Positions 51,079 through 61,746 of a stretch of DNA of 64,000 nt are shown here, one piece after another. The position numbers were made by a program, and so were the translations under genes. Numbering within the stretch: the stretch's first letter is position 1; each line of letters starts with the position of its first letter. The notes beneath the pieces are model-generated. The model did not search any database. It worked only from the letters and a program-made list of their open reading frames with translations, and was not told the origin of the DNA. This DNA is from Candidatus Zymogenaceae bacterium (GTDB taxonomy: Bacteria > Desulfobacterota > Zymogenia > Zymogenales > Zymogenaceae). The stretch is from positions 62,001 to 126,000 of the forward strand of contig JAFGAS010000035.1 of NCBI GenBank assembly GCA_016933535.1. Direction: 5' to 3'.

Positions 51079-52344
51079 TCATTGTTTTGATTCTCCGGCC
51101 AAGCGTATCATCATACGAATGATAATCCCCCCGAGTATCAGGATCATCAACGCAATAGCACCCCAGAGGATGAACGGGTATCGTTCGGTCATCGGAAGGT
51201 CGGAGCCGGGTTTGTAGTCCGGATTCTCGATGATCGGTCCGAGAGAAACCGGCAAAAAAGAATTCCTGTCGATGTAGGAAAAAACCTGTACGATGTCGTA
51301 TAATGGGCTCTCGATACGTGGATTGCCTAAATAGAGCACATATTCCTTGCCCGGATTCGCCGAAAAAGTGATCTTCTGGGGGACACCGGAAACGGTTACC
51401 CCGGAAATCGTCAGAGGGGTATTATTCTCGTCTTCTATGATGAGTTTCAAATACCGGGCCTGTGTACGGGGGTAATCGATGGTTGTGTTTGAACGCGAAA
51501 ACCGGGATGTCTTGATGGAATATATGGATGTGGTCAACGTCTCCTTGTAATCCTTTGGTGTATCGACATTAGCCGAAAGGAGCGTCACGTCCCGTTTGAA
51601 GTTCGTATCGGATACCAGAAGTGCAATCGTCGATGTGGGGATGTTCTTGTATGCAAGGTCGACGGTGATCTCTGTGATGGGTTTCGGCGTTTTCACCTCA
51701 CGGACCTTCATGGCGCTCGGGATGACCTCGGATTCCCCCTTGATGTCCTCAACGAGGTAAATATTACCTCCGACCTCAACGAGTGGTTCTTCGCCGTCAT
51801 CCCAGAGCGTGACTTTCAAGTACCGATAATCCGTCATGGGGTAGGAGATGGAAAGGTTTTTGATATTGTGGTCGCTCGTAAGGTCGAAGACGTAATCATT
51901 CTCCTTTAGAACGGCGAATTTTCTGTTGTCGGGCGAGCCCTCGACGGTAATTCTCCTGACAAAATCGGTGCTCCCGGTGGTAATGGTGATACTGTTAGTC
52001 CTGATACCCGTGTCCCCCACATCGAGGGTAAAGGTAGTGTAACTCTGGGGAATGTAGGAGGTGTTGAGGACCTGGGTTTCTATCTTCTTGCGTTCACTCG
52101 TTCGGGAATTGCTCCAGATAACGTAAGGAACCTCGATGGCATCGACGGTTGATATCCGCAGGTCCGACAGGTTCGGTTTGGCCTTGTCATAGACGTCCGG
52201 GAGGATATTGAAAAAGACGTATCCCGGTGCAGTTACCTCTATATGAGCGAGATATCTGTAAACGGACGAATCGAGCGACGGGCCAGCACCTGATAGAAAC
52301 AGGGCCGCGATAAGGATTGATAAGCCTGCTCTACGAACCGTCAT
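51079..52344 (-). CDS. DUF3999-like membrane-anchored exported protein
   Basis: 421 residues. A signal peptide (AGLSILIAALFLSGAGPSLD) is followed by a long beta-rich periplasmic part with repeated jelly-roll-like strands (DVGDTGIRTNSITITTGSTDF, ARYLKLIIEDENNTPL). One C-terminal membrane helix (YPFILWGAIALMILILGGIIIRMMI) ends it. This agrees with DUF3999, which is commonly encoded beside DUF2339, as here (14-bp overlap). The function is unknown; a role in the cell surface or polysaccharide handling is a guess from the fold. Last gene of the mla-region transcript. Confidence 0.7.
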   Translation of the reverse strand: MTVRRAGLSILIAALFLSGAGPSLDSSVYRYLAHIEVTAPGYVFFNILPDVYDKAKPNLSDLRISTVDAIEVPYVIWSNSRTSERKKIETQVLNTSYIPQSYTTFTLDVGDTGIRTNSITITTGSTDFVRRITVEGSPDNRKFAVLKENDYVFDLTSDHNIKNLSISYPMTDYRYLKVTLWDDGEEPLVEVGGNIYLVEDIKGESEVIPSAMKVREVKTPKPITEITVDLAYKNIPTSTIALLVSDTNFKRDVTLLSANVDTPKDYKETLTTSIYSIKTSRFSRSNTTIDYPRTQARYLKLIIEDENNTPLTISGVTVSGVPQKITFSANPGKEYVLYLGNPRIESPLYDIVQVFSYIDRNSFLPVSLGPIIENPDYKPGSDLPMTERYPFILWGAIALMILILGGIIIRMMIRLAGESKQ

Positions 52345-54178
52345 TTTTTACCTCCTTTTGATCTCCTATGACAGCAACCATAATCTGATCCTTGAACCTG
52401 GTATAGAGGAATGACACGGCAAGCAGGATGATTCCCAGGCCGATGAACGAAATGATCCGGTAGATATTTTCAAGAGACGAGAGGTCGAAGATAAAGACCT
52501 TGAAAATGGTGACAAAGAAGAGGGCTATGGCAAATATCCGCGAGGGCGCGTGCCTCTTGATAAACCCGATCACGATAAGCACCGCCGAATAGATTGCCCA
52601 GAGGCCTGAAAGGGAAAGGCGTTGGGCATAGAGGTATCGGTTGTAGAGATCGACAAACTGAAGCTCGTAGTCGTATTCGGTCAGCATTCTTCCCTGTATT
52701 TTTGAAAGGCTAATAGCGAAGTAGCCGTAGATCTCCACCGAAAGGGCGATCAGGAGTATGAGGTGCCCGGAAATGAAGAGAATCAGAGATACGGGATTCC
52801 AATGGGGAGTATCCTTACGCCGCGAAAAGATATAGGAGCAAAAGAACGTGGCCGCCATTACCACAATGGCCGTGAGGAATCTATCGTTAATGAATGAGTG
52901 AAATCCGGCCCGATAGATATCGGCCGAAAGGTCGAAGAAGAAGAGCTTTCCTATCGCAACAATCAGGAGCGACATGCCGGCAAGGAGAATCGAGCGGCTG
53001 TCGGTTTTCGTTCCGATCCAGACCAGCGCCGCGGCCAGCACCGCCCAGCCGACCGTAATCCAGTTTTTCTCGAGCTGAATGGGAACCATGATCACCAGGA
53101 AGCCCAGGGCCACGGCGAGAAACGTGAGGACGAGCCTCGTCTCGGCGGCGACACGTTTATAGCTGATAAGCGCCAGGCCTAAGTAGACGGCGGCCATTGT
53201 CCCGGAAAAAATACCCATCAGATCCGAGTAGTGATCCTTCAGGTTCGCGTAGCTCGCCCCAAAAAATACGGAGGCCACAAGAAAGATAAAGATGAGATCC
53301 AGGACGGTGGTCTTTGCCTTATGGATGATGTTGTAGAATATCGACAGAGAGGCAAAGATGATGAAAAAGAGGGTAAGGAAGATCTGGGTTGTACCGTACG
53401 GAACCGGTTTGATGTGGTAAAACTCTGTCGCCCAGCCGCCGAAAATGGCGACGGTGGCGATAAAGGCGAAGATGTTGAGCCACTTCCAGTTCTTGAAGAA
53501 GGCCACGGTGAGTACGCCGAGATCGAGGATAATAATATAGGTCAGGAGGGGCACTTGCTGATTCTGCCCGGTCGACAGGAGGATTGGATTGATATAGCCG
53601 CCGAGAAAACCCATAAAGGCGATGGAAGACGCGTTGTATCTAATCGAAAGCAAGACGGAAAAGACGGTCACGATGATAAAGAGAATCCGCCCGATATCCA
53701 TCGGAATGACCTCGTAGTAGCTGGCGGCGCCGAAGAGGGCCAGAAAGAGAATGGCGATACCTCCGCCTGCTAATCCCTGGGAATAGTATTTATATTTCTT
53801 GTTCCAGAACTCACCCCAGGCAATGAAGGCGAGGCCCACCAGCATCCCGAGGACGACCCTTCCGGTCGGGCCGATCCATTCGTTCTCAAAGGCATATTTG
53901 ATAAAGAAACCTATGCCGATAACGACCGCCACGATTCCAATGTAGTTGAGCCACTTGCCGCCGATCTTGGCCTCGATCTCTTTTGTGCTGCGGGCGGGCT
54001 TCTTTGGGGCGGACTCAGGTATCGGGGGAGGGGCCGCCCTTTCGATTGGCGCGGCGACGGGCGTGGGCTTCCCCTCGATTGTGTCCAGCCGAGACTTCAC
54101 GGTCAGGACCTCGCGTTGGAGAGCCTCCAGTCGCTCGATAATTCGATCAATCTTCTTGTCTCGATCGTTTTCGTTCAT
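52331..54178 (-). CDS. DUF2339 polytopic membrane protein
   Basis: 615 residues. An N-terminal coiled coil (about 3-40, IDRIIERLEALQREVLTVKSRLDTIEG) and a Pro/Ala linker lead to about 18 membrane helices. The first is preceded by the DUF2339 signature IEAKIGGKWLNYIGIVAVVIGIGFFIKYAFENEWIGPTGR, with GAASYYEVIP further on. The family is a large, uncharacterised membrane protein. Overlaps the ASKHA gene by four bases and the DUF3999 gene by 14. Confidence 0.9.
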   Translation of the reverse strand: MNENDRDKKIDRIIERLEALQREVLTVKSRLDTIEGKPTPVAAPIERAAPPPIPESAPKKPARSTKEIEAKIGGKWLNYIGIVAVVIGIGFFIKYAFENEWIGPTGRVVLGMLVGLAFIAWGEFWNKKYKYYSQGLAGGGIAILFLALFGAASYYEVIPMDIGRILFIIVTVFSVLLSIRYNASSIAFMGFLGGYINPILLSTGQNQQVPLLTYIIILDLGVLTVAFFKNWKWLNIFAFIATVAIFGGWATEFYHIKPVPYGTTQIFLTLFFIIFASLSIFYNIIHKAKTTVLDLIFIFLVASVFFGASYANLKDHYSDLMGIFSGTMAAVYLGLALISYKRVAAETRLVLTFLAVALGFLVIMVPIQLEKNWITVGWAVLAAALVWIGTKTDSRSILLAGMSLLIVAIGKLFFFDLSADIYRAGFHSFINDRFLTAIVVMAATFFCSYIFSRRKDTPHWNPVSLILFISGHLILLIALSVEIYGYFAISLSKIQGRMLTEYDYELQFVDLYNRYLYAQRLSLSGLWAIYSAVLIVIGFIKRHAPSRIFAIALFFVTIFKVFIFDLSSLENIYRIISFIGLGIILLAVSFLYTRFKDQIMVAVIGDQKEVKNDGS

Positions 54179-55782
54179 ACCGATGAATCCTCAAATAAGA
54201 GACTTGAAATAAACAGGTCATTAAACCTTCGGTCCGCAGAAAGCTCAATATAGTCGACCCGACCGGCGAGGTCCTCGATGCCTTCCTTGGCGCCGTCGGA
54301 CCGAGCGGCCTCGATAGCCCCCGAAAGGGCGGCGTCGCCCACGAAGACGATCTTTTCTACGAGCGAGGCCGGCAGCATACCAACGCCCACGATGCTTTCC
54401 GGCTTCAGATAATTGCCGAAGGCACCGGCCACGAGGATCCGGTCTATGTCATTCCATTGGACGCCCATCTCGGTAAGAAGCACCCTCATGCCCGCGTGCA
54501 TCGCACCCTTGGCCAACTGTATCTCCCGGATGTCCTTCTGGCTGATCCCGATGGATCGCGACCGATCAGTCGATAAGATAAAGCGGGTCGTTCCATTGTC
54601 GCGGACGACTCTCTTCCTCAGACCCCGGGACGCGGTGTCAGACGTTATCCTCCCGGTGCGGTCGATAAGTCCGTTTCGCCTCATTTCGGAGACGGCGTCA
54701 AACAGGCCGGAGCCGCAAATTCCGCGGGGGCTTGTTTTCCCCTTTACCGCAAGGTTGACTTTGTCTCGCTGGATTGCCACGGCCTCGATCGCGCCGAAAT
54801 CGGCCCGCATCCCGTCCATAATATGAGAGCCCTCGAAGGCGGGGCCGGCGGCGGTCGAGCAGGCCAGAAGCCTTTTCCTGTTTCCGAGGACGATCTCGCC
54901 GTTTGTCCCGATGTCAAGCCCGAGAATCATCTCATCGGATTCGTGAATACGGGACGACCAAATGAAAGCCATCGTATCCCCCCCCACGTACCCGGAAAGG
55001 ACGGGGAATACCCATACAGACGGTGCCGGTTGGATATCGAATCCCAATCGGGATGCGTCGGATCTTTGGGCCTTGAGGAAACCCGGGGTAAAGGGGGCGT
55101 AGGCGATCGGGGTGGGGTCTTGGCCGAGGAAGAGGTGTTCCATCGTCGGGTTCCCGGCGACCACCACCTCGTGAATGTGAGCGGCGGAAAAACCAAGCCT
55201 TCGGGAGAGTTTTTCCAGAAGCTCGGCTATCGCATCGGCCGCCATCCGCTGCTGGCGTGAGAGGGTAGCGTGGTCTTTGATGACGGCGTTGATACGGGAG
55301 ATAACGTCGGCACCAAAGGCGGCCTGCGGATTGAGGGCAGAGGCGTGGGCCAGGACGTCTCCATCCGGGCGTGAAATAAGCGCCGCGGCGATGCTCGTCG
55401 TTCCGAGGTCTACGGCAAGGGACAGGCCGTCGGCGGGTACGGGCCGGTCCGAGAGGACATGTACCTCATCCCACGAGGCCCCCGTTCCTGCCACCCGGGC
55501 CGAAGCCGGGATTTCCACCACCATATCGCCCGTCACGATAAGGCGGCAGGCAAGCCGCACCCCCTTGTCAATTTCCGGCCTCGGGATGTGCCTGATGTCT
55601 TCAGGTGTGGGGGGCGCGGCGCCGTCGATTACCGTAACCCGGCATCCGCCGCAGCGGCCCTCGCCTCCGCAAGGCAGGTTGACGAGGATGTCGCTTCCTC
55701 TCATGATATCCAGAAAGCCGGCCCCCCGTTTCGCAACACGGCGCGAGCCTTCCGGTCGAATCGTAATGGTGTAATGGGACAT
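54175..55782 (-). CDS. ASKHA-domain ferredoxin (RamA-like corrinoid-protein reactivase family)
   Basis: 535 residues. An N-terminal [2Fe-2S] ferredoxin domain has Cys38, Cys44, Cys47 (LPCGGEGRCGGC) and Cys79. The linker is followed by the DUF4445/ASKHA ATPase fold: LSLAVDLGTTSIAAALI, FGADVISRINAV, EVVVAGNPTMEHLFLG, LGLDIGTNGEIVLGN, ACSTAAGPAFEG, GICGSGLFDAVSEM and ILVAGAFGNYL. Homologues use ATP to reduce Co(II) corrinoid proteins back to Co(I). No corrinoid protein or methyltransferase is adjacent, and its place in an mla-type operon is unusual. The start ATG overlaps the preceding stop (TAATG). Confidence 0.9.
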   Translation of the reverse strand: MSHYTITIRPEGSRRVAKRGAGFLDIMRGSDILVNLPCGGEGRCGGCRVTVIDGAAPPTPEDIRHIPRPEIDKGVRLACRLIVTGDMVVEIPASARVAGTGASWDEVHVLSDRPVPADGLSLAVDLGTTSIAAALISRPDGDVLAHASALNPQAAFGADVISRINAVIKDHATLSRQQRMAADAIAELLEKLSRRLGFSAAHIHEVVVAGNPTMEHLFLGQDPTPIAYAPFTPGFLKAQRSDASRLGFDIQPAPSVWVFPVLSGYVGGDTMAFIWSSRIHESDEMILGLDIGTNGEIVLGNRKRLLACSTAAGPAFEGSHIMDGMRADFGAIEAVAIQRDKVNLAVKGKTSPRGICGSGLFDAVSEMRRNGLIDRTGRITSDTASRGLRKRVVRDNGTTRFILSTDRSRSIGISQKDIREIQLAKGAMHAGMRVLLTEMGVQWNDIDRILVAGAFGNYLKPESIVGVGMLPASLVEKIVFVGDAALSGAIEAARSDGAKEGIEDLAGRVDYIELSADRRFNDLFISSLLFEDSSV

Positions 55783-57101
55783 TATCGTGCATGCCGTCGA
55801 AAATAAAACGGGACATCAAGAGTCTTGACGTCATCCTTGACTTCACGGATCAACAGGTGGTGGAGTATCGTGAGCGTGTCCGTACCGTCCGCGGCGGTTT
55901 CGTGTCGAACTATCTCGAAGAGGGGGAGGAGGTTTCTCTTAAATCCGTCATCATACAGGGGGAGCGGATAGAAAACGACGGATGAATCATCTCCGGTTTT
56001 CAGTCTTCGTCGATCATACAACGGAAAGAGATAGATCCAGAGGTCGTCGGCGCCGTCCGCATAGGCCGTCCTGCTATACTTATCGATGAGCATGAAACGG
56101 AGGCTCTCCTCGGTCTTCTCCGACGAGATGAAGCGGCTCCGTGAATAAATCGGGTAAAGAATATACATGCGCTCATCGATCGTGCTATCTTCCGTCGTCA
56201 CCCGTTTTCTGTAGAAGGGGGCAAGCTGGATAAGAGAAAGCGTGTCGGATTGGGCAAATGAGATCAAGGGCCATGGGGCATCGACCTTTTTATAATTACC
56301 TCTTTCGCTGGTGGAAACGGTAAAAAAGGGCCAGAGATACGAGGTCGAGCGGGAATGCGGCGTCTGGCGGTTGACATAGAAGGGAATAATGATGGTATCG
56401 ATCACGGGAGATTGGGTATCGAGATATTTCCCGCTCAACGTGACCAGCGGAAAGAGCACGAAAGTCCTGTAATCCTTTCCCGTTGTTTCTTCGTGTCCCC
56501 AGAGCGGGAATATTCGTAATCCCCGGCCGGCATCTCCTGACGTCTTGTTGAAAAACGGCCAGAGGACGGTATGGGAGACCGTTGAATCCTCGACCGTTCT
56601 CGAATAGACCGGCCAGAGGAGGAAAAAGATATCGTCCTTCCCGAAGCGGTTATTTACCGTTCCATATACCGGAAAGAGCCCGCCGTACGCACGGCCGTCT
56701 TCGGATCTTCCCCAGTAGAGGGGGAAATGGTCGTGGGCGGTTCTGGTCTTATCCGGGACTACTTCGACGGTCTCATCCTTCATGATTGGAAAGACGCGAA
56801 ACTTCTCGTCGATGCCCCTTTTTCTGTATTTTATGAGTGGATAGAGGATATCGATAACGGTGGAGTCGTCCGACGAGTCCTTCTTGATGGAGAAGACGGG
56901 CCTGATGGAAAACTCACGCGCCTCTTTGCCCCGATGATAGTAGACGATGGGAGTGAGTATCGAAAGGGTCTTCGTGTCGTTCCGATTATCATCATTGTAG
57001 TAGACGAGGGGCCAGATATTGACGTGTCGCGGGCCGGTAGAGGCACAGGCGGAACACAAAAGGATGATAAATGCCGGGAGAATGAGAGCCGATCTTTTCA
57101 T
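55782..57101 (-). CDS. Lipoprotein built of about 20 copies of a 19-residue WP/FP repeat
   Basis: 439 residues. The signal sequence (SALILPAFIILLCSACAS) has a probable lipidated Cys19. From residue 28 to the end the chain repeats a unit x-hydrophobic-hydrophobic-[WFYL]-Pro-hydrophobic-aromatic. The Pro residues are at 31, 51, 68, 88, 105, 127, 144, 164, 182, 199, 218, 240, 258, 278, 295, 317, 360, 379, 393 and 431 (spacing 17-22, one unit lacking Pro near 337). Examples: NIWPLVYY, LLWPVYSR, VLWPFFNK, YLWPFFTV, YLFPLYDR. Between repeats are polar, Asp/Ser/Thr/Lys-rich turns. The pattern suggests stacked beta hairpins (solenoid, propeller or barrel). I recognise no named family. It lies 4 bp after mlaD and is coupled to the ASKHA gene. 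Confidence 0.8.
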   Translation of the reverse strand: MKRSALILPAFIILLCSACASTGPRHVNIWPLVYYNDDNRNDTKTLSILTPIVYYHRGKEAREFSIRPVFSIKKDSSDDSTVIDILYPLIKYRKRGIDEKFRVFPIMKDETVEVVPDKTRTAHDHFPLYWGRSEDGRAYGGLFPVYGTVNNRFGKDDIFFLLWPVYSRTVEDSTVSHTVLWPFFNKTSGDAGRGLRIFPLWGHEETTGKDYRTFVLFPLVTLSGKYLDTQSPVIDTIIIPFYVNRQTPHSRSTSYLWPFFTVSTSERGNYKKVDAPWPLISFAQSDTLSLIQLAPFYRKRVTTEDSTIDERMYILYPIYSRSRFISSEKTEESLRFMLIDKYSRTAYADGADDLWIYLFPLYDRRRLKTGDDSSVVFYPLPLYDDGFKRNLLPLFEIVRHETAADGTDTLTILHHLLIREVKDDVKTLDVPFYFRRHAR

Positions 57102-57105
57102 CTCT

Positions 57106-57912
57106 TTAGAAAATCAGGCCGAAGATTGTGGACATGACCGAGATAGGCGTTTGTTCCTCGATTCCCTCGGCCGCTTTTCTGAATTCCCGTATGGTATTCT
57201 CGGATTCCGTATAGAGACTGTCGTCCTGGACAAGCCGGCCCAGCGTACCCTCGCCCTTGTTGATCTTATCGGCTACGTCTTTCATGGTCTTGGAAGATTC
57301 CTTCACGTCGGTATAGAGGGTATCATCGTTCATCAGTTTGCCGAGCGTTCCCTCGCCGCGGTTTATCTTGGCGGTGATGCTCGAAAGGTTGGATGTGGTA
57401 TCCTTCATGTTAGAGACAATATCCTTGAGATCCTCTTTCGTTTCGGGGCTCCCCACGGCCTCGTTGATGGAAGCGGAGATTTCCGCGAGGTTCTTGACGA
57501 TGTCGCTTATATCGGCTTCGGCTATTGTGGTGGCTATGGTATCACCGTCGGAAAGGAGCCCGCTGGCCGGGGTGCCCGGGTAGATCATGATATATTTATC
57601 CCCGAGGGCGCCGTAGGCCTTGATTTCAACCTTGGCGTCCCGATATACGGCGGTGTCGGGAAAGATGGTCATGACCACCCTGGCCCTGTCACCGTCCAGG
57701 GTAATGTCCTGGACATCTCCGACCTCGACGCCAGCGATACGCACCGATCCCATAATATTGAGACCTGAAACGTTGGTGAATTCGGCGTTGAGGGTATAAC
57801 CATGACCGGTTGTCACGCGGTATTGCCCGATAAAGAGGGTTATGAGGCTGATTATGGCAATTCCCAGGAGAACAAAGAGCCCGACCTTAATCGGTAATGA
57901 TGAATCTTTCAT
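57106..57912 (-). CDS. mlaD: MCE-domain lipid-transport protein MlaD
   Basis: 268 residues. A membrane anchor (IKVGLFVLLGIAIISLITLFIG) is followed by the MCE domain (about 38-115): YTLNAEFTNVSGLNIMGSVRIAGVEVGDV, VKIKAYGALGDKYIMIYPG with a slight variant. A helical C-terminus (about 130-265) contains two copies of a 34-residue unit beginning KIN[R/K]GEGTLG[K/R]L and ending before the next. It should form hexamers with a lipid pore in the periplasm and bind MlaE-F. The gap to mlaF is 16 bp. Confidence 0.93.
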   Translation of the reverse strand: MKDSSLPIKVGLFVLLGIAIISLITLFIGQYRVTTGHGYTLNAEFTNVSGLNIMGSVRIAGVEVGDVQDITLDGDRARVVMTIFPDTAVYRDAKVEIKAYGALGDKYIMIYPGTPASGLLSDGDTIATTIAEADISDIVKNLAEISASINEAVGSPETKEDLKDIVSNMKDTTSNLSSITAKINRGEGTLGKLMNDDTLYTDVKESSKTMKDVADKINKGEGTLGRLVQDDSLYTESENTIREFRKAAEGIEEQTPISVMSTIFGLIF

Positions 57913-57928
57913 GGTTCAACTCCCAATG

Positions 57929-58672
57929 TTACCCGTGCATTATTTCGTTGAGATTCCCTGAAACGTACCCCGAAATCAGGGGATCCCGTGACTTCTGGAA
58001 CTGCGCAGGGGTCCCCTCGGCGTAAATCTTTCCCTTATGGAGCATGGCGATCTTATCGGCCACGGCCAGGGCGAACTTTATGTTATGGCTGATTATGACG
58101 TAGGTGATCTTCTCGATCTCGTGGGTCTTGAGTATGAGATCGGTGATGGAGTTTTCCGTGATGGGATCGAGCCCCGATGTCGGTTCGTCAAACAGGACGA
58201 TTTTCGGGTCCGTTACCAGCGCCCGGGCGAGTCCTACCCGTTTTTTCATCCCTCCCGAGAGCTCGGAGGGCATCTTATCGTCCATGCCGGTCAGTTCTAC
58301 CTGATCGATCTTTTTAGCCACCCGTGTCCTGATCTCTGCCTTGGGGAGGTGCTCGCGCTCCACCAGAGGGAAGGCGACGTTTTCCCAGACCGATAATGAG
58401 TCAAAGAGGGCCCCTTCCTGAAAGAGCATTCCAAAATCAACCCTGATTCGATTAAGCTCCTTTTCGGTCATGGAGGTGATCTCATCGCCGTTAACGAATA
58501 TCTTGCCGTCGTCGGGTTTCGTCAGGCCGATAATGTGCTTGAGGAGAACCGATTTTCCGGCACCGCTCCTGCCGAGGATCACGGTGATCTCGCCGTCCTG
58601 TATGGTTAGATTCAGTCCGTTGAGTACCTCTTCTTTTCCGAACGACTTTTTTAGATCAAGAATCTTTATCAT
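57929..58672 (-). CDS. mlaF: Phospholipid ABC transporter ATPase MlaF
   Basis: 247 residues. Walker A GRSGAGKS, Q-loop MLFQEGALFDSLSVWENVAFPL (the MlaF-specific 'EGALFDSL' block), signature ELSGGMKKRVGLARAL (SGGM, typical of Mkl/MlaF), Walker B IVLFDEPTSGLDP and switch His in ISHNIKFA. It powers lipid transport between the membranes with MlaE and MlaD. No MlaB, MlaC or MlaA is present. Confidence 0.96.
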   Translation of the reverse strand: MIKILDLKKSFGKEEVLNGLNLTIQDGEITVILGRSGAGKSVLLKHIIGLTKPDDGKIFVNGDEITSMTEKELNRIRVDFGMLFQEGALFDSLSVWENVAFPLVEREHLPKAEIRTRVAKKIDQVELTGMDDKMPSELSGGMKKRVGLARALVTDPKIVLFDEPTSGLDPITENSITDLILKTHEIEKITYVIISHNIKFALAVADKIAMLHKGKIYAEGTPAQFQKSRDPLISGYVSGNLNEIMHG

Positions 58673-58688
58673 GAAACGCGGCCATCCT

Positions 58689-59462
58689 CTATTTGAACAT
58701 CATCGCCGATAAGATATAATCCGAGACAATTACCGTAACGCTGGCCACCACAACCGCCCTGGTGGTAGCCTTGCCAATTCCTTCGGCCCCGCCCGTTGCA
58801 TAGTAGCCGTAGTAGCAGCCGATCAGGGTCAGGAAAAAGCCGAAAAAGACCGACTTGATCAAACCGTTTGTATAATCGTTCATTTCCAGCAGGTCGTGGA
58901 CGTGGTAGATAAAGTCGCCTCCGCTGATGTGGAGGACGGCAACGCTTATGAAATAGGACGCGATAAAGCCCGCCAGCGAAAAGAGCGAGGCCAGGATAGG
59001 CATCATGGTAATGCCGGCAATAATCCTCGGGACTACCAGGTATTGAACCGGATTAATCGACATGGAGGTGAGAGCGTCGATCTGCTCGGTGATCCGCATG
59101 GTTCCGATCTCCGCGGCCATGGCCGAGCCAACGCGCCCGACAACCATAATGGCGGCGATGACCGGACCCATTTCACGTGCCATCCCCACGGCGACGGTAG
59201 CGCCCACGAGGCTCTCGGCGTTGAAGTGGCGAAATGTCAGGTATCCATGAAGCGCCAGCACCATTCCCGTAAATGCGCCCGTCGTGATTATGATAGACAG
59301 GGATTTCGTCCCGACGAAGTCCATCTGACGCAGGATGTTCATAATGCGGTAGGGCGGGCGCACGGCCCATCGTACGGCGTCTAAAAACAGGAGGGTGATC
59401 CTCCCAAAATGGAGGACCTTCTCGGATATCCAATCCAGTACCAGGGACGGCACGCGAAACAT
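58689..59462 (-). CDS. mlaE: Phospholipid ABC transporter permease MlaE
   Basis: 257 residues from ATG 59462, with AGGAGG 7 bp upstream; the frame is open 19 codons further to a GTG without an RBS. An amphipathic N-terminal helix and five spans follow. Motifs of the MlaE family: GTKSLSIIITTGAFTGMVLALHGYL, GATVAVGMAREMGPVIAAIMVVGRVGSAMAAEIGTM (core), EQIDALTSMSINPVQYLVVPRIIA and YYATGGAEGIGKATTRAVV. It binds MlaD and MlaF in the inner membrane. Starts 62 bp after the cyclase stop. Confidence 0.95.
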   Translation of the reverse strand: MFRVPSLVLDWISEKVLHFGRITLLFLDAVRWAVRPPYRIMNILRQMDFVGTKSLSIIITTGAFTGMVLALHGYLTFRHFNAESLVGATVAVGMAREMGPVIAAIMVVGRVGSAMAAEIGTMRITEQIDALTSMSINPVQYLVVPRIIAGITMMPILASLFSLAGFIASYFISVAVLHISGGDFIYHVHDLLEMNDYTNGLIKSVFFGFFLTLIGCYYGYYATGGAEGIGKATTRAVVVASVTVIVSDYILSAMMFK

Positions 59463-59523
59463 TAAGAAGCCTCCTGAAATAGCAGCAAAGGTTCGCTGAG
59501 TATATCCCGACAACGCCACTATT

Positions 59524-61746
59524 TCAACTTAAAAAGACCCCATCCCAATCGGCGGGGGGAGGATCAGCGAGCGCCTTCTCGATCCGGGAAAGGTAGAGCC
59601 GGATGGGAACATCGTCGGCAAGCTCCTTTTTCAGCGCCTCGAATATTCTGAAGGCATCTTCCCATCGCTGAGACCTCACGAGGGCAAGCCCGTGTTCAAA
59701 TTGCCCGGCTGCCGCTTCCCGATCAGGAAACTGTCCCTTCTTTCCGATCATTTCATATATTTTTTCGGGAATGTTTTTACCCCGGACGCGCACCAGATCG
59801 AGTTCCCGAAAAGAGATAGCGTCCGCAACCCGCCGGTAGGTATACTCGGTGACCAGACAGGTCGTTTCATACTGCTTGTTGAGATTTTCGAGCCGAGAGG
59901 CAAGGTTAACGGCGTCTCCCATAACCGTATAGTCAAAGCGTTTCTTTGAACCCATGTTGCCGACGGCGGCAAACCCGGTATTGATCCCTATCCGTATAGA
60001 AAGGGCGGGCCGTCCCATTGCCTTCCAGCGAACCATGAGTCGATCCAACTCGGCTATCATATCGAGGGCCGTCATGCACGCCTGCATCGGGTGATCCGGC
60101 TGGGGAAGGGGGGCACCGTAAACCGCCATAATGGCGTCGCCGATATATTTATCCAGGAGCCCTCGATGCGAGAAGACGACGTCAGTCATGGCGCTCAGGT
60201 ATTCGTTGAGGATATTGACCAGATCCTCCGGAGAGAGCTCTTCGGAAAGCGACGTGAAACCCTTAATGTCCGAGAAAAGGACGGTGATTTCTTTACGGTC
60301 GCCGCCCAGCGTCAGCATGGACGGGTTCTTGAGGATCTCGTGCACGACAAGCTCGGGAACGTAATACTGAAATGCCTCCCTGATCTGTTTACCGGTCCGT
60401 TCGACCGTTATATATCGAATCAGGTTGAGTACGGTATAGCCGACGGCTATGGTCAAGAGCGGCGGGAGAACGGCGATCCAGATGTTTTTATTGGCAAACA
60501 TATATTGGGTGAACATAATCCACCCTCCGGTCATCACGACGCCGATGACCGCCCCGAACCACGCCGAGACGCGGGGGATGATAAGACCCAGCAGGATACC
60601 GAACAGTAAGACCACGAGAAAATCGAGATACTGCACCCACGCCGGCATGGAGATAAAGCGTCGGTGCAGGATGTTGTCTATGATAGTCGCGTTGATCTCA
60701 GTTCCGGGAAAATCGCTTCCTATGGGCGTGACCCTGAGGTCGTAGGTGCCCACAGCCGATGTGCCGATAACGGCTATTCTGCCGTTGATCTTTTCTTTGT
60801 CGACGCGCCCCTTGAGGATATCGACAAAGGAGTAGTAGGGGAACGTCCTGACCGGCCCGCGGTAATTGATGAGGAGCTCCCCCTTTGCGTTCGTGGGTAT
60901 CTCGATATCGCCGATGACAACCTTGTATACGCCGTCCTCCGAGATGTAGATATCCGGCGCGGGCGCCTTCAGATAGGCCCGCGACAGCTCCAGGGCAAAT
61001 GAGGGGTAGAGGGTATCGCGGCACTTAACGGCCAGCGGCGACCATCGGATGGTGCCGTCACCGTCGGGAAAGACGTTAAAGTAGCCGAATCCCTCGGCGG
61101 CACGTGAAATGACCGGGATATTTGTTTCCGGTGCGATCATCTCGAAGAAGGAGACCCGTTTGGCCTCCTCTGAATCGTACGATATGAGCCTGTACCGGGA
61201 TGTGCCGATGTCCGTGAGGCTTTTCTCGATATCGGGCTCGCTCATGTGCTGGATGTCTTTTTGCTTAACGTGGAAGAAATAACCGAGGATTACCCCGGGG
61301 GTCTGGGAGAGGGCGTGCGCGAGACGGTCGTCGTTGTCGAGTCGGTCACGCGTCTCATCATAAAACTCGAGCAATTTGGGGTCGGTAAAGCCCTGTTGCT
61401 GCCCCTGCCGTTTGATATAGTCTATGGTGCTGATTCCGGAGTAGATATCGGGCTCGGAAAAAACCATGTCAAAACCGACGGCCCGGATACCCATCTTATT
61501 CAGGTTCTCTACTACGTCGACGAAATAACTCCGGGGGAACGGCCAACGTCCCACCTCGTCGAGGGTCTTCTCGTCGATAGCGATGATCACGACCTCATCG
61601 CCGGGAGTCATTTTTCCCCGGAGAAGGAAACGGTAGTCGAGGATCTTGTTCTCTATTACGGGAATAAAGCCGAAGCCGAACCTGCCGAGGAAAATGACAA
61701 GGATGGAGATAAGAATGCCTATGATGATTCCGGTGATCTTTTTCAT
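59524..61746 (-). CDS. CHASE2-domain adenylate cyclase (class III)
   Basis: 740 residues. The first helix (IIIGILISILVIFLGRFGFGFIP) is followed by a periplasmic CHASE2 sensor (about 30-330: EVVIIAIDEKTLDEVGRWPFPRS, GFDMVFSEPD, VIGTSAVGTYDLRVTPIG). Two or three helices (about 375-455) follow, then the cyclase (about 485-660). The metal Asp residues are in VLFSDIKGFTSLSEEL and DKYIGDAIMAVYG. DKYIG (Lys) and TVMGDAVNLASRLE (Asp, Asn, Arg) fit ATP as the substrate. A short TPR-like helix pair (about 685-735) ends it. It makes cAMP in response to an unknown extracytoplasmic signal. Seventeen bp follow the K+ channel stop. Confidence 0.94.
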   Translation of the reverse strand: MKKITGIIIGILISILVIFLGRFGFGFIPVIENKILDYRFLLRGKMTPGDEVVIIAIDEKTLDEVGRWPFPRSYFVDVVENLNKMGIRAVGFDMVFSEPDIYSGISTIDYIKRQGQQQGFTDPKLLEFYDETRDRLDNDDRLAHALSQTPGVILGYFFHVKQKDIQHMSEPDIEKSLTDIGTSRYRLISYDSEEAKRVSFFEMIAPETNIPVISRAAEGFGYFNVFPDGDGTIRWSPLAVKCRDTLYPSFALELSRAYLKAPAPDIYISEDGVYKVVIGDIEIPTNAKGELLINYRGPVRTFPYYSFVDILKGRVDKEKINGRIAVIGTSAVGTYDLRVTPIGSDFPGTEINATIIDNILHRRFISMPAWVQYLDFLVVLLFGILLGLIIPRVSAWFGAVIGVVMTGGWIMFTQYMFANKNIWIAVLPPLLTIAVGYTVLNLIRYITVERTGKQIREAFQYYVPELVVHEILKNPSMLTLGGDRKEITVLFSDIKGFTSLSEELSPEDLVNILNEYLSAMTDVVFSHRGLLDKYIGDAIMAVYGAPLPQPDHPMQACMTALDMIAELDRLMVRWKAMGRPALSIRIGINTGFAAVGNMGSKKRFDYTVMGDAVNLASRLENLNKQYETTCLVTEYTYRRVADAISFRELDLVRVRGKNIPEKIYEMIGKKGQFPDREAAAGQFEHGLALVRSQRWEDAFRIFEALKKELADDVPIRLYLSRIEKALADPPPADWDGVFLS

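Follow-up and report, generated by a model that had tools for sequence, protein, structure and literature searches.

Exported beta-sheet repeat proteins of an unnamed family accompany one kind of MlaEFD transporter, probably in place of MlaC and MlaA

What forms the outer-membrane end of an MlaEFD transporter whose genome encodes neither MlaC nor MlaA? The question bears on phospholipid movement between membranes in most diderms without these two proteins. Types of MlaD have been described for Veillonella and other diderms, and no outer-membrane end was assigned to long MlaDs without a recognisable barrel, among them all of those from the PVC group (PMC10665443). The locus examined here encodes a repeat protein (hereafter “WP”) directly after mlaD, and the class of system to which it belongs was not recognised in that work. 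The window, meaning the whole stretch of 64,000 nucleotides that was analyzed, contains the following features:

58689..59519, minus strand: mlaE, permease, GTG start (PF02405, E=7e-81; TIGR00056 over its cut-off)
57929..58672, minus strand: mlaF, ABC ATPase (PF00005, NF008809)
57106..57912, minus strand: mlaD, 268 aa, with a TM helix, an MCE domain and a helical region with GEGTLGKL repeats (PF02470, E=3e-18; AlphaFold2; Foldseek)
57109..57156, minus strand: MlaD C-terminal signature EQTPISVMSTIFGLIF-end, predicted to be a tip helix, where WP is proposed to dock (motif counts; helix 258-267)
55782..57101, minus strand: coding sequence of the WP-repeat protein, 439 aa (open reading frame and sequence, ATG start; homologues in 114/395 genomes of the phylum)
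57042..57101, minus strand: signal peptide of WP, residues 1-20, with a possible non-canonical lipobox C-S-A-C20 (sequence; AlphaFold2 helix 4-17; lipobox count in homologues)
55788..57029, minus strand: repeat domain of WP, residues 25-438, about 42 short beta strands (AlphaFold2 pLDDT 93.8; listing of strands and turns; proline-centred hydrophobicity profile of 76 homologues)

The initial annotation had read MlaE, MlaF and MlaD as one operon without MlaC or MlaA, and both parts of this reading were borne out. The three core components were confirmed by Pfam (PF02405, PF00005 and PF02470). PF05494 (MlaC) and PF04333 (MlaA) were absent from the whole window genome, which is 89% complete, and also from G001 and G002, two relatives in the same family that are 99% complete. 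The window system thus has the MlaEFD core and, with no MlaC or MlaA, is not of the six-component E. coli type. The gap of 4 nt between mlaD and the WP gene was confirmed as well.

About 20 hydrophobic-proline repeats at regular spacing had been claimed for the WP protein. We counted 19 hydrophobic-P-hydrophobic sites, whereas 5000 shuffles of the same protein gave 4.7 on average and never exceeded 14, and the sites are spaced more evenly than chance would give (P about 0.0008). Across 76 homologues, in which identity falls as low as about 20%, twelve of the prolines do not vary. The repetition is therefore real, but the proposed unit of 17 to 22 residues was corrected to paired strands of about six residues flanking a proline turn.

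This correction comes from the structure predicted for WP alone, using AlphaFold2 with the 76 homologues as input (mean pLDDT 93.8, pTM 0.79). The repetitive beta architecture expected by the initial annotation was obtained as a repetitive all-beta fold (pLDDT 94). The model has about 42 strands, each of about six residues, and its sole long helix is the signal peptide. Joints between strands alternate between a proline turn (LWPF, LYPL, FPI) and a polar turn (GKE, DS, NRND). Across the 76 homologues, residues at positions −2, −1, +1 and +2 from the proline are hydrophobic in 83-99% of cases, and this value drops below 35% past about five residues. Due to this alternation of turns and the hydrophobicity around the prolines, the predicted sheet would be hydrophobic along one edge and polar along the other. 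Foldseek returned no global match of the model to any solved fold, leaving the repeat fold without a global match in the PDB. The best local match was the single-layer sheet of Borrelia OspA (TMt 0.45, TMq at most 0.23); this likeness is local, antiparallel and single-layer at about 10% identity, and reflects architecture, not homology. A Foldseek search against viral structures gave local beta-sheet likeness and nothing more.

WP had been called a lipoprotein. The signal peptide stands, and an anchor at C20 is plausible in the window protein, where the candidate lipobox reads C-S-A-C20 with a non-canonical residue at −3. The anchor is not general, however: a lipobox pattern was matched in 21/76 homologues, and many others have ordinary signal peptides. 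Since the lipobox is confined to a minority, a lipid anchor cannot serve the family at large as a tether to the outer membrane. Judged from these signal sequences, WP is exported to the periplasm and is probably lipid-anchored in some lineages.

No Pfam-A or NCBIfam model scores meaningfully on the window protein, and a plausible Pfam match was obtained for 0/76 homologues. PF05494 (MlaC), PF04333 (MlaA) and the ABC_trans_aux (PqiC) domain gave no match in WP or in the 76 homologues, and no relative was found among PDB sequences by phmmer and profile searches. The Leptospira model NF047486 (LA_1737_Cterm) was matched by 13/76 homologues at E<0.01 (best E 1e-6); the window protein itself scored 12.1 bits (E 0.14), short of the curated cut-off of 60 bits. 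From these sequence matches, the Leptospira LA_1737 family is probably a distant relative. A literature search for LA_1737 returned unrelated tomato accessions only, and the WP family is not described in the literature searched on Mla systems of these phyla (subscription journals fell outside the search). No described family of another function matches WP, its sole named relative being functionally undescribed. WP and its homologues form a family that has no name; its members are exported and built of beta-sheet repeats. The LA_1737 family gains a functional lead from them.

By profile search, the WP gene was found in 114/395 Thermodesulfobacteriota genomes, nearly always as a single copy, and, in the Verrucomicrobiota-type phylum to which a Kiritimatiellae record belongs, in 65/145 genomes. 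Named relatives were found by a pattern scan made from sub-alignment A2; these carriers belong to Thermodesulfobacteriota, Nitrospinota, one Myxococcota and Verrucomicrobia/Kiritimatiellae. Gene neighbours were listed for 110 WP loci, and three at contig edges were set aside, leaving 107 assessable. Most homologues adjoin mla genes (94/107). The WP gene lies immediately downstream of mlaD in 82 of the 107 loci (median gap 8 nt), immediately upstream of mlaE in nine and within five genes of mla in three; in the other 13, including that of Thermodesulfobacterium, it is apart from mla genes. The Myxococcota order is mlaE-mlaD-WP. In the Verrucomicrobiota-type group the usual order is WP-mlaE-mlaF-mlaD (WP-mlaEFD in Kiritimatiellae), and mla synteny is kept in about 17/19 loci.

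One family (f32; L039 and L143-L152) carries an mlaD-WP pair inside an fmt-rpe-TPR cluster, with mlaE elsewhere in the genome. Because the pair lies away from mlaE, the mla operon appears to be split there into the permease on one side and the needle plus WP on the other. Long WP reading frames in three loci looked like fusions, but none is claimed: that in L129 crosses runs of N, and the N-terminal extensions in L115 and L227 look like frame extension.

WP occupies the operon slot after mlaD that MlaC and MlaA occupy elsewhere, and no MlaC was found in WP loci. MlaC was found in 227/395 genomes of the phylum. WP and MlaC co-occur in 20 of these 395 genomes versus 66 expected (Fisher p 3e-25, a value inflated by related genomes), and the anticorrelation persists over 107 families (p 7e-6). 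In 198 genomes, WP and MlaA co-occur in 9 versus 31 expected; MlaC and MlaA tend to occur together in the same genome-level test. Genomes with both WP and MlaC had at least two copies of mlaE in all 12 examined, and of the WP genomes that have just one mlaE, 21 in number, none has MlaC. Two genomes (G049 and G141) carry an mlaE-F-D-MlaC-MlaA operon plus an mlaE-F-D-WP operon on another contig. Because WP sits in the MlaC/MlaA slot and is anticorrelated with both, it apparently does the same job for the transporter. That WP stands in for these proteins, as had been proposed, is supported by the mla synteny, by the anticorrelation and by a coupling to a motif in MlaD that holds even where the genes are unlinked.

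The MlaD paired with WP differs from that paired with MlaC. Median MlaD length is 152 aa in MlaC genomes, 342 aa where WP is adjacent and 500 aa in genomes with neither; MlaC adjoins 27/30 short MlaDs of MlaC genomes, whereas WP goes with long ones. By Foldseek, the window MlaD resembles E. coli MlaD in fold (TMt 0.87), and also mycobacterial Mce1. Its AlphaFold2 model comprises a TM helix, the MCE domain, helices (pLDDT 50-70) and a short terminal helix at 258-267. A C-terminal beta-barrel of the Veillonella type was not found in this model, whose last helix runs to residue 267 of the 268. In genomes with neither WP nor MlaC, the best MlaDs are mostly about 500 aa long with an extra C-terminal domain. 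These MlaDs (L251-L278) share a terminal “..FxGxGhxFxDEDLKxLL..”, which is probably the Veillonella-type barrel. Apart from the WP class, the kinds of MlaD seen here agree with those already described for Veillonella and other diderms (PMC10665443).

A proline-containing hydrophobic motif ends 106/106 distinct WP-adjacent MlaDs (EQTPISVMSTIFGLIF-end in the window), a count that is partly circular due to the motif pattern having been built from these same MlaDs. The weight therefore rests on the unlinked genomes and the negative sets. In 28/30 genomes where WP lies away from mla, or where no mla gene was seen next to it, an MlaD ends in the motif; the motif was found in 0/30 MlaDs of MlaC genomes, 0/30 of genomes with neither and 0/1276 background open reading frames. 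A profile match reached the motif in 50/198 genomes, and all 50 are WP genomes. Note that some Verrucomicrobiota MlaDs carry the motif in a looser form only. The MlaD C-terminal motif predicts WP in a genome, also when the two are unlinked, and this 16-residue tip is a diagnostic for WP-class systems.

Two further observations concern MlaD. The helical part of motif-type MlaDs consists of a variable number of GxGTLGKLxxDDxLY units of about 34 aa each (alignment A4), so needle length may be tuned by repeat count. A second mlaE-F-D operon in the window genome (contig C57, locus L243:6357-8875) encodes a 285-aa MlaD without the motif, and neither MlaC nor WP adjoins it.

We consider it very likely that the WP protein is a partner of MlaEFD. 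It would be a dedicated partner of the MlaEFD class in which a medium-long needle MlaD (TM helix, MCE domain and helices) ends in a hydrophobic tip helix, not in a beta-barrel. Coupling to the last MlaD residues, exclusion of MlaC and MlaA, and export together point to the far end of the MlaD needle as the position of WP. Docking at the needle tip by the outer membrane is our favored arrangement and is held with some confidence, the membrane location and the tip contact both being inferred. Since WP travels with one kind of Mla pump in place of MlaC and MlaA, the family probably replaces the MlaC shuttle and the MlaA part, and is probably the missing outer-membrane end of these pumps. With the position at the outer-membrane end taken as the most likely one, the aromatic, hydrophobic proline-turn edge may meet the inner leaflet, receive the MlaD tips, or both.

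Known systems offer a parallel. PqiC receives the C-terminus of PqiB (PMC10897342), and the Mpc system of Brucella combines an MlaEFD-like needle and a PqiC-like lipoprotein (PMC12436622). Like PqiC with PqiB and like Brucella MpcA, WP is exported and is encoded with an MCE needle transporter. PqiC and MpcA are outer-membrane lipoproteins at the C-terminal end of the needle, and the same place is proposed for WP. Hand-over of the lipids moved by MlaEFD might then take place at WP with no need for MlaC or MlaA, in an arrangement like that of PqiC capping PqiB; both this step and its direction are conjectural. WP differs from PqiC in being about twice as long, repeat-built, all beta, mostly without a lipobox and without a Pfam match in the 76 homologues, and would do a PqiC-like job with an unrelated fold. 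The Veillonella-type system is similar in having MlaEFD without MlaC or MlaA and a long MlaD thought to reach the outer membrane. It differs in that the WP-class MlaD is barrel-less, ends in a hydrophobic motif and is accompanied by a separately encoded protein. For the long MlaDs that lack a recognisable barrel, WP is a concrete candidate for the missing outer-membrane end, and it is so in at least four phyla.

Whether WP itself conducts lipid is a matter on which we are doubtful. Transport of lipid along its hydrophobic edge can be suggested only tentatively. The same low confidence applies to a reading of WP as a lipid-transfer protein of a new class. In it, the molecule would be a long, single-layer beta ribbon, with a continuous Trp/Phe-Pro edge serving as a hydrophobic track that phospholipids follow, in either direction, between the outer membrane and the MlaD needle tip. 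If the hydrophobic-track reading were true, WP would add to the known ways of completing Mla at the outer membrane one not seen before, and would do so in several phyla.

Alternatively, WP might carry lipid in the manner of a shuttle or slide, either soluble or anchored, and so replace MlaC, with the ribbon edge binding acyl chains and ferrying or conducting phospholipid between MlaD and the outer membrane. Consistent with a carrier, WP takes the MlaC gene slot and excludes MlaC, most homologues lack a lipobox and the hydrophobic edge is continuous; 42 strands at 4.8 Å, if laid flat, would span about 200 Å, which is near the width of the periplasm. We nevertheless regard it as unlikely, as WP-type MlaDs are long needles, unlike the short shuttle-type MlaD, and the conserved extreme tip of MlaD suggests docking. 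A structural or regulatory envelope protein of the Mla complex that makes no lipid contact (a needle stabiliser, an assembly factor or a peptidoglycan spacer) is quite improbable. Single-layer beta sheets are good scaffolds, WP matches OspA locally and PqiC has been proposed as a needle stabiliser (PMC10897342), but the hydrophobic edge of WP and its anticorrelation with both MlaC and MlaA speak for a role in the lipid path. It is highly improbable that WP is an outer-membrane beta-barrel, the C-terminal barrel of a long MlaD split off as its own gene: MlaDs of about 500 aa in genomes with neither WP nor MlaC do have an extra C-terminal domain, and the equivalent Veillonella part has been modelled as an outer-membrane barrel (PMC10665443), but strands of about six residues are too short for a membrane barrel, no barrel is among the top structural matches of WP, and the profile match in barrel-type MlaDs stops before the tip motif.

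Neighbors of the operon other than mla genes were also recorded. The ASKHA-ferredoxin gene placed beside WP by the initial annotation is present in the window, its reading frame (54175-55782) starting at the last base of the WP stop codon, but this neighbor is not conserved; a link to WP was dropped, there being only four matches over all loci. After the ferredoxin gene, 51079-54178 of the window encodes a DUF2339 membrane protein and a DUF3999 protein, a cluster that, among the loci read, is kept in one family only (f1). The purH gene follows the WP gene directly or a few genes on in many loci (L024, L033, L072, L073, L078, L161 and others). In at least two families, the mla-WP operon has a gene for a CHASE2 adenylate/guanylate cyclase at its 5' end or close to it (window 59524-61746; also L022, L023, L033, L078, L080, L082, L168 and L169).
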